This document shows, piece after piece, positions 15,887-19,569 of a stretch of DNA of 38,266 bases. Each line of letters starts with the position of its first letter. Position 1 is the first letter of the stretch. The notes beneath the pieces are model-generated. The model was given only the letters and a program-made list of their open reading frames with translations. It had not been told where the DNA came from and ran no database searches. The DNA is from a virus, in the IMG/VR virus record IMGVR_UViG_3300034418_011152, positions 1 to 38,266 of that record; one strand, written 5' to 3'. The translations under genes and the position numbers were made by a program.

Positions 15887-15972
15887 GCATAAGCCTTCCT
15901 ATGGGTTTATAATTTTTAGTGAATGTAAAGAGCAGGTAATTTTTGGCTCTTCTTGGATTACCTGCTTTTATT
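15887..15972 (+). ncRNA. candidate short RNA or attenuated leader (about 85 nt)
   Basis: RNA from the promoter at 15852 would run about 85 bases to a terminator. A first hairpin is AUAAGCC with GGUUUAU (one G-U pair), and the second is the terminator stem. An alternative stem, AAGAGC (15928-15933) with GCTCTT (15946-15951), shares bases with the terminator arm and excludes it, as in attenuators. No frame of useful length lies inside. This is inference from structure only. Confidence 0.4.
15931..15972 (+). terminator. rho-independent terminator or attenuator
   Basis: AGCAGGTAAT (15931-15940) pairs perfectly with ATTACCTGCT (15957-15966) and is followed by TTTATTCTG. It lies between promoter and gene, so it either ends a small RNA or attenuates transcription into the 761-aa gene. 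Confidence 0.7.
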
Positions 15973-15981
15973 CTGTATAAT
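15953..15981 (+). promoter_or_regulatory. candidate promoter giving a leaderless mRNA
   Basis: TTGGAT (15953-15958), a 17-base spacer and TATAAT (15976-15981) predict RNA starting at about 15988-15989, exactly at the ATG of the 761-aa gene, which lacks any Shine-Dalgarno sequence. The -35 lies in the loop and right arm of the terminator. Confidence 0.5.
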
Positions 15982-15988
15982 CATTCTC

Positions 15989-18274
15989 ATGGCAGCTCCA
16001 ATATTAGGAATACCCGCATTATATGAATTACTTGTAGGAACAGGACTACTTGCCGGAGGTGCTATAACTGCACAACAAATGCAAAAACAAGTAGAATCTA
16101 ATCCAGAGTTAGTGCAAGAAGCATTGAAAAGAGTATTTACAGGACCTGCAACTAATTTAGTAAATCCCGATGTGTTAAAGTCCGTATCCCAAACTCCATC
16201 TGGTAGCGTATTTGGTCCACAACAAAAAGACATTGATAAGATTCAAAAAGAAATTAAAGAATTAAGTAAGTTACCTGGCTACAGTACGATTGACGAATTA
16301 ATGTCCAATGTAGAAACATTAAATCCTCCAGAGCAAGAAACAAAACAATTAACCACTCCTATACCAGGAAGTGATATTATAGAAATCAATAAAGAAAGTT
16401 TTCCTCCCGCTCCTAAGATAGATACTTCTATTCTTACTATGAAGGATCCAAAAGAATTTTTAGCAAAAGATAAAAACACAAAACAATATATTGAAGCTAC
16501 CAACCCAACTAAAATTTTTGGAGAAACTAATTTACAAGATGTGGATTACAAAGCTAAAGAAGCAATTCCAATTGAATATCGATTTGACCCTAAAACTTAT
16601 AATGCAGTCTACGAACAATCCATTGCAGAATTAAACGATAAAACAAATGTAGATATTCCAAAAATTGCAAAAAAATTTAACTTAACAATGCCAGATATTA
16701 ATTTAGTAAATAGTTCTTTAGAAGCTGCAGCCGATCCTGATAAACGTTATTGGTATCAACGTTCAGGAAACTATTTAAAAAATTTAGTAACTACGATAGA
16801 TCCTAATGCAACCGATAAGGACGTAGCAACTTTTATTGATATTGTTTCTGTAACTTCTGGGGGAGTAGCACCGAAACAAAATTTAAAATTAGCACTTGGT
16901 GTATACTCTGATTTAAAACAAAACCAACCGTCCATGACAGGATTTAAAACTCAACAAAGTTTAGATAAATATTTATCCAATAAAGACGAAGTTATTAATA
17001 CACCTAAGTTTGGTAACTTTACTGATACCATGAAATATTTTGCAAAAGTAGGAGAAAGACAACCTAATGTCGTAAATGATTTACAAATGGCTAAGTTGTT
17101 TGGTGTAAAACCAGATCAATTAGCATCGAACCCTGAACTCTATAATGCTATGACAGGGATCATGAATAATTTAACAGCAGAAGTAAATAAACAATTACCT
17201 AAAGGACAAGAGTTACAACCATTTGAATTACAATCTTTGATGTGGTCTCAAGCTAGAGGAGTAGCATCTAATTACGAACAAGTAGGACAAGAGTTAATAA
17301 AAGAATTATATGATCAAGGAATCAATATTGAAACAGATGTAATGAAACCAGATTTTGCTGCACGACTGCAAAAAACAATTACTCCGTACAAAGAAGCTAT
17401 GAAAGGCACTATTGAAATTGGATCGTTCTTAACTCCACAAGGTAAAGAAATAGAAAAAATTATTAATCAATTTGGAACAGATCCGAAAGTAATGGACGGT
17501 ATCAACTCGATCCACGTATCAGGATTAAAGAAACTAATTACTAAACAAGCAAAACAACCATCGGTCATAGAAGATGTCGTATCTAATGTAATTGGCCAAA
17601 AAGCAGAAATATCAAGAATGCAAGTTGGTTTAGGTACTTATGAGGGTAAAGCAAATTACAATGTCGTTATTCCTTTAACAGTAAACACGGCTCAGGGACC
17701 ACGGCCATTAACAGATGAAGAACGATTACAGACTTTAGCTGTGTTAGGTACAGAATTAAATCAAGCGGCTATGGCAGCATCCAATTTTAGAACCCTGCAA
17801 GACATAAATCTAAAAGAGGGAGAACAAGCAACAGGTCAAATTTACGCTAAGTTTCCTGTAGATCAGTCTAAAATACAACAATTACATGCTGAAACAGGCT
17901 TAGATTTTAATGTTAGTCCTGTTCCAGGTGGATTTATTGGCTCTATTATTTCATTTAAAGGGGAACCTGATAAAGCAAAATTAGATCAAGCGTTTGAAAA
18001 AGTATTTGGAAAAAATGCTGAAATGGTATATACTAAATCTGCTTGGAAAGGCGATTATATAGAATCAAAAGACTATAAAGGATATTACGATGGCGTTAAA
18101 AGAAGTATCAGCACAAGAGTGGGAAGCGATGGGGCTACCAAGTTCGATCTCAATAGTTTCGACAGTGCCACAGAAAAAGCAAGAAACATCTCCAAAGAAA
18201 GAGACGCAGCCTATCAAGAATTCATCAACTCTCCCTACATCACAAAACTCAGACAAGTAAAATCTAATAATTAA
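15989..18274 (+). CDS. large phage protein of unknown function (761 aa)
   Basis: The ATG at 15989 fits the promoter at 15953 and gives a hydrophobic Gly-rich N-terminus (ILGIPALYELLVGTGLLAGG) that could insert into a membrane. The rest is soluble and helical. A segment DPDKRYWYQRSGNYL, followed by SVTSGGVAPKQNLKLAL and later QSLMWSQARG, resembles modules I have seen in polyvalent or virion-associated proteins of marine phages. That suggests a protein injected with the DNA or packaged in the virion. No catalytic residues stand out. It is separated from all other structural genes and lies beside the methyltransferase. Confidence 0.65.
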   Translation: MAAPILGIPALYELLVGTGLLAGGAITAQQMQKQVESNPELVQEALKRVFTGPATNLVNPDVLKSVSQTPSGSVFGPQQKDIDKIQKEIKELSKLPGYSTIDELMSNVETLNPPEQETKQLTTPIPGSDIIEINKESFPPAPKIDTSILTMKDPKEFLAKDKNTKQYIEATNPTKIFGETNLQDVDYKAKEAIPIEYRFDPKTYNAVYEQSIAELNDKTNVDIPKIAKKFNLTMPDINLVNSSLEAAADPDKRYWYQRSGNYLKNLVTTIDPNATDKDVATFIDIVSVTSGGVAPKQNLKLALGVYSDLKQNQPSMTGFKTQQSLDKYLSNKDEVINTPKFGNFTDTMKYFAKVGERQPNVVNDLQMAKLFGVKPDQLASNPELYNAMTGIMNNLTAEVNKQLPKGQELQPFELQSLMWSQARGVASNYEQVGQELIKELYDQGINIETDVMKPDFAARLQKTITPYKEAMKGTIEIGSFLTPQGKEIEKIINQFGTDPKVMDGINSIHVSGLKKLITKQAKQPSVIEDVVSNVIGQKAEISRMQVGLGTYEGKANYNVVIPLTVNTAQGPRPLTDEERLQTLAVLGTELNQAAMAASNFRTLQDINLKEGEQATGQIYAKFPVDQSKIQQLHAETGLDFNVSPVPGGFIGSIISFKGEPDKAKLDQAFEKVFGKNAEMVYTKSAWKGDYIESKDYKGYYDGVKRSISTRVGSDGATKFDLNSFDSATEKARNISKERDAAYQEFINSPYITKLRQVKSNN

Positions 18275-18320
18275 TCTAGAAACACTGGACAAATTCATAT
18301 AATTAGGTAGATACGCTAGT

Positions 18321-19466
18321 ATGAAGATACTAGATTTGTTTTCTGGAATTGGTGGTTTCTCTTTAGGCATGGAAAGTACAGGCCATTTTGAAACTGTTAA
18401 ATTTGTAGAAATGGATAAGTATTGCCAAAAAGTTTTACGTAAACATTGGCCTAATGTACCAATTGAGGAGGATATAAAAAATGTCAAAGGAAAAGAATTC
18501 GAAGCAGATGTTATTGTGGGAGGCTTCCCGTGCCAGCCAATGTCCGTTGCCGGTAGACAAAAAGGAACTAGTGACAGTCGATATCTCTGGCCAGAAATGT
18601 TTAGACTCATTAGGGAAGTCAAACCCGAATTCGTTATTGGCGAGAATGTGCAAGGAATTATTAACATCCAAGACGGCATGGTGCTCCGACAGGTGCAAGA
18701 TGACTTGGAAAGTGAAGGTTTCGAAGTCCAATGTTTCCTTATTCCAGCTTCAGGCATCGGTGCTTGGCACCAAAGAAACAGAGTTTGGATTGTGGGCCAC
18801 TCCGAATACAATGGATCACTTGCCACCAAGAAGTCCAGAGGGAACACTGAAACTACAACAGGGACATCGCAAGGGAAGAAAGAAACCATCGAACTTGAGA
18901 GAACAAGTGGATCCAGAAACAATGAGAATGTACCCAACACCGAAAGCATCCGGTCAAGAGAATGCGGACACACTGATCAAGAGAAAGGGATGGGTGAAAG
19001 CAGCTTCGCACAATCTAACTGCACATGTACAAATGTTCCCAACTCCAACTGTAGGATGTGTGGAGGGAGGAGAGCAATCGGACCGAGTAGAACAAACCAA
19101 GTCTGGGGGTTTTATCCTGAGAAAGAAAAACAAACCGAACATGACGTACGGAGCGAAACTATCGGACGCAATGTTGTACCTGGAGAAGAAGAAATTAATC
19201 AGCACACCAACAACCAACGACAGCAAGAACCTAACCTTTTGCGAGAGCCAGAAGAACCGATCCTCGATCATCGGAGACATGATGAGGGAGGGGGAAGTGA
19301 AAGTTGGTGGACGACTCAATCCAGAATTTGTGGAATTCCTGATGGGATTTCCTATGAACTACACAAAGATCGAGTCAACCGAGTAAAAGCTTTAGGCAAT
19401 GCAATCGTACCACAGATTGCAAGACAACTTGCTTTAGCAATGTTAGCAGCCAAGGGAAAAATTTGA
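18321..19466 (+). CDS. C5 cytosine-specific DNA methyltransferase
   Basis: The 381-aa enzyme has motif I DLFSGIGG (5-12), motif IV GGFPCQP with catalytic C71, motif VI ENV (108-110), motif VIII QRNRVW (151-156) and motif X VKALGNAIVP (355-364). It should methylate cytosines in phage DNA, probably against host restriction. The region between motifs VIII and X, where the target recognition domain lies, is low-complexity and rich in Glu, Asn, Arg and Thr. This same DNA encodes a second protein in the +1 frame. A -10-like TATAAT lies at 18298-18303 without a clear -35. Its stop falls inside repeat copy 2. Confidence 0.9.
   Translation: MKILDLFSGIGGFSLGMESTGHFETVKFVEMDKYCQKVLRKHWPNVPIEEDIKNVKGKEFEADVIVGGFPCQPMSVAGRQKGTSDSRYLWPEMFRLIREVKPEFVIGENVQGIINIQDGMVLRQVQDDLESEGFEVQCFLIPASGIGAWHQRNRVWIVGHSEYNGSLATKKSRGNTETTTGTSQGKKETIELERTSGSRNNENVPNTESIRSRECGHTDQEKGMGESSFAQSNCTCTNVPNSNCRMCGGRRAIGPSRTNQVWGFYPEKEKQTEHDVRSETIGRNVVPGEEEINQHTNNQRQQEPNLLREPEEPILDHRRHDEGGGSESWWTTQSRICGIPDGISYELHKDRVNRVKALGNAIVPQIARQLALAMLAAKGKI
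18481..19386 (+). CDS. nested gene in +1 frame of the methyltransferase (301 aa)
   Basis: The frame is open for 301 codons entirely inside the methyltransferase gene. Its ATG has the strong Shine-Dalgarno GAGGAGGA (18465-18472) eight bases upstream. The protein has four spaced TP motifs, LWATP (104-108), MYPTP (150-154), MFPTP (185-189) and STPTTND (241-247), and ends with LNPEFVEFLMGFP (279-291). I recognise this 'LWPTP ... LNPxWVEWLMGFP' pattern from phage proteins near C5 methyltransferases. The LWATP motif is read from the same DNA as the methyltransferase motif VWIVGHS. Function unknown, perhaps a partner of the methyltransferase. Confidence 0.6.
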   Translation: MSKEKNSKQMLLWEASRASQCPLPVDKKELVTVDISGQKCLDSLGKSNPNSLLARMCKELLTSKTAWCSDRCKMTWKVKVSKSNVSLFQLQASVLGTKETEFGLWATPNTMDHLPPRSPEGTLKLQQGHRKGRKKPSNLREQVDPETMRMYPTPKASGQENADTLIKRKGWVKAASHNLTAHVQMFPTPTVGCVEGGEQSDRVEQTKSGGFILRKKNKPNMTYGAKLSDAMLYLEKKKLISTPTTNDSKNLTFCESQKNRSSIIGDMMREGEVKVGGRLNPEFVEFLMGFPMNYTKIESTE

Positions 19467-19499
19467 AAAACTTTCCTATAACAATAGGCAAAACGACTT
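19457..19499 (+). repeat. 43-base direct repeat, copy 2 of the dyad element
   Basis: These 43 bases recur without mismatch at 19527-19569, a 70-base period. They contain the CCTATAACAATAGG dyad at 19475-19488. The methyltransferase stop codon lies inside. No -35 at proper spacing from TATAAC is visible, unlike copy 1. Confidence 0.9.
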
Positions 19500-19526: not shown

Positions 19527-19569
19527 AAAAATTTGAAAAACTTTCCTATAACAATAGGCAAAACGACTT
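19527..19569 (+). repeat. 43-base direct repeat, copy 3 of the dyad element
   Basis: This copy is identical to 19457-19499, with the dyad at 19545-19558. It ends one base before the GTG of the 58-aa gene at 19570, so a bound protein or RNA start here would directly affect that gene. Confidence 0.9.

Follow-up and report, generated by a model that had tools for sequence, protein, structure and literature searches.

A gene for a C5 cytosine methyltransferase in a phage genome contains, in its +1 frame, a second open reading frame (ORF) of 301 codons plus stop, which begins with ATG and lies wholly within the methyltransferase frame. This raises the question of whether two proteins are made from the same DNA and, if so, what the second one does. 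The window analyzed, a stretch of 38,266 bases (IMGVR_UViG_3300034418_011152), is a phage record with genes for DNA polymerase, primase, helicase, terminase and portal proteins. We refer to the outer methyltransferase protein as alpha and to the nested +1-frame protein as beta (Table 1). Alpha can be assigned to the C5 cytosine methyltransferases on the basis of its PF00145 domain (E = 8e-52; TIGR00675, E = 1e-44) and of motifs I, IV (PCQ), VI (ENV), VIII and X in alignments A2 and A6, and 182 relatives of it were found among viral contigs. The gene is preceded by a 773-codon ORF (15953-18274) without a PHROG match, and its 3' end overlaps the first copy of a 43-bp perfect direct repeat (19457-19499 and 19527-19569) with a CCTAT/ATAGG hairpin.

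The original prediction, that this methyltransferase gene harbors a complete second gene, agrees with the layout of the DNA. A ribosome site is located eight bases ahead of the nested ATG, the encoded protein contains the four TP motifs LWATP, MYPTP, MFPTP and LISTP, and it closes with LNPEFVEFLMGFP. The same DNA is read as LWATP in beta and as VWIVGHS in alpha, and the DNA encoding FLMGFP in beta overlaps that encoding ICGIPDGIS in alpha. The GC content is likewise raised in the overlap, at 46% compared with 33% for the whole window.

Table 1 Features of the methyltransferase locus (positions in the window).
Feature	Position	Strand	Evidence
Alpha, C5 cytosine methyltransferase frame, 381 aa, motifs I-VIII and X	18321..19466	+	PF00145, TIGR00675
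Shine-Dalgarno of beta, GAGGAGGA	18465..18472	+	Equivalent site in 91/100 relatives
TAA in the beta frame just ahead of the ATG, closing the frame upstream	18475..18477	+	Sequence
Beta, nested gene, 301 aa, +1 frame relative to alpha	18481..19386	+	ORF; phrog_1008; dNN/dNS; synonymous-shuffle HMM
Alpha motif IV, GGFPCQPMSVAG, catalytic Cys	18519..18554	+	Invariant PCQ in alignments A2 and A6
Alpha motif VIII, QRNRVWIVG; last shared point ahead of the module array	18771..18797	+	Alignments
Beta module A, WATPNTMDHLPP...	18793..18930	+	Type A in 74/103 loci
Beta module C, YPTPKASGQENAD...	18931..19035	+	Type C in 42 loci, array positions 2-5
Beta module B, FPTPTVGCVEGG...	19036..19197	+	Type B in 57 loci, array positions 1-6
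Beta module J, ISTPTTNDSKN...	19198..19314	+	Type J in 10 loci
Beta motif-IX-like end, LNPEFVEFLMGFPMNYT	19315..19365	+	Nearly invariant in alignments A1 and A3
Alpha motif X, RVKALGNAIVPQ	19380..19415	+	Alignments

The coding potential of the nested frame was assessed by randomization of alpha. The frame was never stop-free in 5000 within-gene synonymous shuffles (mean of 8.3 stops), nor in 5000 resamplings from codon usage (mean of 15.7 stops). Among the other large genes of the window that were checked, the longest open stretch in the +1 or +2 frame was at most 127 codons. On the minus strand, an antisense ORF of 302 codons (18065-18973) spans the end of the upstream gene and part of the methyltransferase gene.

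Beta matches the PHROG family phrog_1008 across its full length (residues 2-299, E = 1.3e-22), and has at least 585 relatives in viral contigs. About 160 viral loci were fetched with either beta or the methyltransferase as the query, and since these loci were found by similarity, their frequencies do not represent C5 enzymes at large. A homologous ORF is present in the +1 frame of all of them, nearly always unbroken, and the frame is also open in loci retrieved by the methyltransferase query only. The alpha frames of two loci (L044 and L157) are broken, possibly through sequencing errors. In two contigs matched by both queries, the identity of beta exceeds that of alpha (79 versus 66%, and 78 versus 68%). 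A beta HMM was then constructed that excluded the window, the five closest of its listed relatives, and loci L158 and L159. The +1 frame of the window scored 513 bits against this HMM, compared with a maximum of 217 for synonymous shuffles (z = 18), and in each of the 11 loci the real frame outscored every one of its 300 synonymous shuffles (z of 4-18), the ten distant loci including N15, epsilon15, and phages of Paenibacillus, Lacticaseibacillus, Xanthomonas, Acinetobacter and Porphyromonas. Because the real frame far outscores its synonymous shuffles, the similarity in the +1 frame is not a shadow of alpha conservation.

Among the bacterial genome hits inspected, beta lies in +1 of an overlapping methyltransferase frame in every case except one MAG, in which beta and the methyltransferase form a single ORF, and no standalone beta was present. 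Beta occurs in 12 of the 199 genomes scanned for the Paenibacillus alvei family and, across its phylum, in 4 of 398, a sparse occurrence that fits carriage by mobile elements. The nested locus was also seen on three Lihuaxuella thermophila contigs (L206, L207 and L208) with identical match statistics (51% to the query). Viruses of many bacteria share the nested arrangement, and databases usually miss or mislabel the nested protein.

Selection was estimated separately for the two frames. The nested-frame dNN/dNS was 0.29 (0.26-0.33; 47 independent pairs), while in the same analysis the part of alpha preceding the overlap gave 0.95 and the +2 control frame 1.47, indicating that the beta frame is under purifying selection. 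Resolved by region, dN/dS in the +1 frame and in frame 0, respectively, was 0.84 and 0.13 before the overlap, 0.31 and 0.12 across motifs IV-VIII (the N-terminal part of beta), 0.16 and 0.94 in the module array, and 0.20 and 0.23 in the motif IX part; outside the module region, the frame-0 dN/dS of alpha is 0.12-0.13. Within the array, changes altering only alpha (0.389 per site) accumulate about six times faster than those altering only beta (0.066 per site). Judged by these rates, the alpha frame across the modules is neutral, with no detectable selection on its amino acids. Given this neutrality and the strong constraint on the +1 frame, it is probably the nested frame alone that encodes specificity.

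In 30 of 103 loci, beta extends beyond the alpha stop. Extensions longer than 100 codons showed a dN/dS of 0.118 (12 independent pairs) and normal codon periodicity, and this constraint provides, at the level of sequence, overlap-free evidence of a protein. A conserved beta C-terminal domain of about 130 aa past the alpha stop (L032:3586-4099, L130:1999-2422 and 23 other loci) belongs to no Pfam family and shows a weak match to phrog_28064.

The start region of beta is also conserved. A Shine-Dalgarno core lies 4-12 bases ahead of the beta start in 91 of 100 distinct loci, compared with 7% of the other ATGs in the same genes, and an in-frame stop occurs within five codons upstream in 87 of 100. 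The beta site is kept through two alpha protein solutions, GAGGAGGAT (EED) and GAAGGAGAT (EGD); a recognizable Shine-Dalgarno for alpha's own start is found in 3 of 100 viral loci only. Because both the Shine-Dalgarno and the upstream in-frame stop are conserved, we infer that beta initiates independently. The conserved dual-coding pair put forward in the original prediction is thus borne out by a +1 frame that is open in essentially all relatives, by the preserved ribosome site, and by purifying selection. To our knowledge, large, fully nested genes on the same strand are rare and hard to prove, and the case made here rests on the agreement of hundreds of relatives, the ribosome site, the opposing selection pressures on the two frames, and the non-overlapping extension. 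Together, these lines of evidence indicate that the nested 301-codon ORF is a real gene.

Beta is composed of an N-terminal part, two to seven modules of about 44 aa that each open with a TP motif, and an end of the form LNPxFVEFLMGFPxxWT. Across the 103 loci, 410 modules belonging to 49 types form 72 distinct arrays, and the order in the window is A-C-B-J. The end is designated motif-IX-like, an assignment by position and pattern, and it shares a frame with motif X in single-chain mycobacteriophage methyltransferases and in split beta proteins; among solved C5 methyltransferases, no significant sequence match reached this end. Searches of beta against Pfam and NCBIfam gave no match, and profile searches of solved structures gave no significant match. 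An AlphaFold model of beta, based on an alignment of 54 relatives, was of low confidence, with a pLDDT of 50.8. The model of a single-chain mycobacteriophage enzyme had a good core, with modules mostly below a pLDDT of 30, and superposed on M.HhaI with a Z score of 22.5 and an rmsd of 4.1 over 241 aligned residues, a comparison that shows the C5 fold and not the modules.

Insights into the function of beta come from relatives with other gene layouts. Mycobacteriophage methylases such as DLane gp65 carry the TP modules and the end in a single frame, between motifs VIII and X, and beta aligned by hhalign with these single-chain methyltransferases over the VIII-X segment only (96.4%, E = 1.2e-9). 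In mycobacteriophage Wizard007, both halves are present as tandem genes. In loci from Brevibacillus (L205), Alicyclobacillus (L216) and a marine virus (L073), alpha terminates after motif VIII, and the modules, the motif-IX-like end and motif X are all carried by beta, which starts inside alpha. Three layouts thus occur, single-chain, split and nested, and the counterpart of beta in single-chain enzymes is their VIII-X segment. A Pelosinus locus (L215) looks single-chain but was not counted as such, as a +1 beta N-terminus is present in its genome too; it may represent a one-base shift of a nested gene.

We propose that alpha and beta, read from overlapping frames of one locus, are the two subunits of a C5 methyltransferase, with beta supplying target recognition to alpha in trans, a reading to which we assign a probability of about 0.8. 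In the proposed scheme, the frame-0 product alpha would contribute catalytic motifs I-VIII, a long unselected segment, and then motif X, while beta, started from its own ribosome site inside alpha, would join alpha in a complex and provide target recognition in trans. The exchangeable TP modules would be the target-recognition units, perhaps one module per target, such that a swap of cassettes would alter the set of methylated sequences, and methylation re-targeted in this way would presumably allow the phage to escape host restriction. Target recognition is the best supported role because of the VIII-X homology and because beta carries motif X in some loci, and the same evidence favors the earlier suggestion that the nested protein is a partner or target-recognition factor of the methyltransferase. 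We further consider it reasonably likely that a broad class of phage and prophage C5 methyltransferases has its specificity only in hidden +1 cassette arrays, with the annotated frame acting as a neutral pass-through and cassette recombination re-targeting the enzyme while both frames are kept open.

Several other explanations of the nested frame were weighed. The ORF could be an accident of methyltransferase sequence and base composition that yields no protein, as might be suggested by an overlap that is GC-richer than the genome and partly crossed by the long antisense ORF as well. Such an origin is contradicted by the shuffles that never leave the frame open, the dNN/dNS of 0.29 versus 0.95 upstream, the Shine-Dalgarno in 91 of 100 loci, and the constrained extension beyond the methyltransferase stop (dN/dS of 0.118); unless all of these are artefacts, a chance ORF is refuted, and we rejected it as having practically no likelihood. 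Ribosomal frameshifting from alpha could instead give access to the nested frame, generating a fused protein with no start of its own, and the existence of single-chain versions implies that such a fusion would in principle have activity. The upstream stop (87 of 100), the conserved ATG and the conserved Shine-Dalgarno (91 of 100) led us to reject frameshifting as the main route, and split versions also retain the internal start region; we regard this route as very improbable.

An out-of-frame gene within a phage methylase has a precedent in the hidden HNH element of ShiLan, a homing endonuclease in mycobacteriophage methylases (PMC11855218). A beta of this type was rejected and is given next to no weight, since it matches no HNH or other nuclease family, overlaps core motifs IV-VIII rather than an insertion, and accompanies the gene in every relative rather than being patchy. 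Beta could also be a real protein with a role separate from methylation, such as an anti-restriction factor, a regulator or a DNA-binding protein, and the extra C-terminal domain of about 130 aa in some beta proteins, with no Pfam family, would suit such a role. Against this stand the homology of beta to the VIII-X segment of single-chain methyltransferases, the presence of motif X on beta in split loci, where alpha is incomplete without it, and the lack of standalone beta in the genome hits inspected, and we consider a separate role unlikely. The reading of beta as the target-recognition subunit of a two-subunit enzyme is the one retained below.

Known systems offer partial parallels to this proposed enzyme. 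The Bacillus phages SPbeta, phi3T and rho11 encode multispecific C5 methyltransferases with several target-recognition modules of about 40 aa, resembling the present locus in having several such modules and differing in being single-chain. In M.EcoHK31I, the gene for the large polypeptide also encodes the small one in a different frame, as reportedly described by Lee, Kam and Shaw in 1995. The ORFs and selection point to the same arrangement here, with the beta ORF lying in a different frame of the alpha gene. In M.EcoHK31I, motifs I-VIII and X reside in the large polypeptide and motif IX in the small one (PMC3404938); here alpha has motifs I-VIII and X, and beta has a putative motif IX, assigned by position and pattern. 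M.EcoHK31I differs in being a bacterial enzyme with one reported target, YGGCCR, whereas two to seven exchangeable modules are present here. Its predicted target recognition domain was placed in the larger subunit (PMC3404938), whereas the constrained modules here lie in the nested protein, and this placement disagrees with an extension of the proposed specificity role of beta to M.EcoHK31I. M.AquI is a split C5 methyltransferase whose second polypeptide carries motifs IX and X (PMC3404938); it resembles the split forms L205, L216 and L073, while in the window alpha retains motif X and fully encloses beta. Mycobacteriophage DLane gp65 and PHappiness gp71 have the same TP modules and a PEWMMGWPAGW end between motifs VIII and X, with the difference that they are encoded in one frame as one chain, and a nested gene is unneeded.

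The nested protein itself is already present in databases as phrog_1008 ('DNA methyltransferase'), Rani gp51 of a Paenibacillus phage ('g50 Internal gene') and K1ind2 gp33 of an Escherichia phage. The annotation treats phrog_1008 and K1ind2 gp33 as methyltransferases in their own right, and leaves the subunit role and the nesting unexplained. A literature search restricted to open-licence papers returned no account of the nested family as widespread. The two-polypeptide precedent of M.EcoHK31I is known, and what is new here is the breadth of the family, the hidden module arrays and the neutral pass-through frame.

If the proposed model is correct, many annotated phage 'DNA methyltransferases' would be only half of an enzyme. 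With the annotated ORF being half an enzyme, cloning would retain beta only if the internal frame were left untouched, and codon optimization of the annotated ORF would destroy beta and yield an inactive enzyme. The nested arrays would also represent a natural system of swappable target modules, including those of Escherichia phages of the BASEL collection (Bas70, Bas71 and Bas77).
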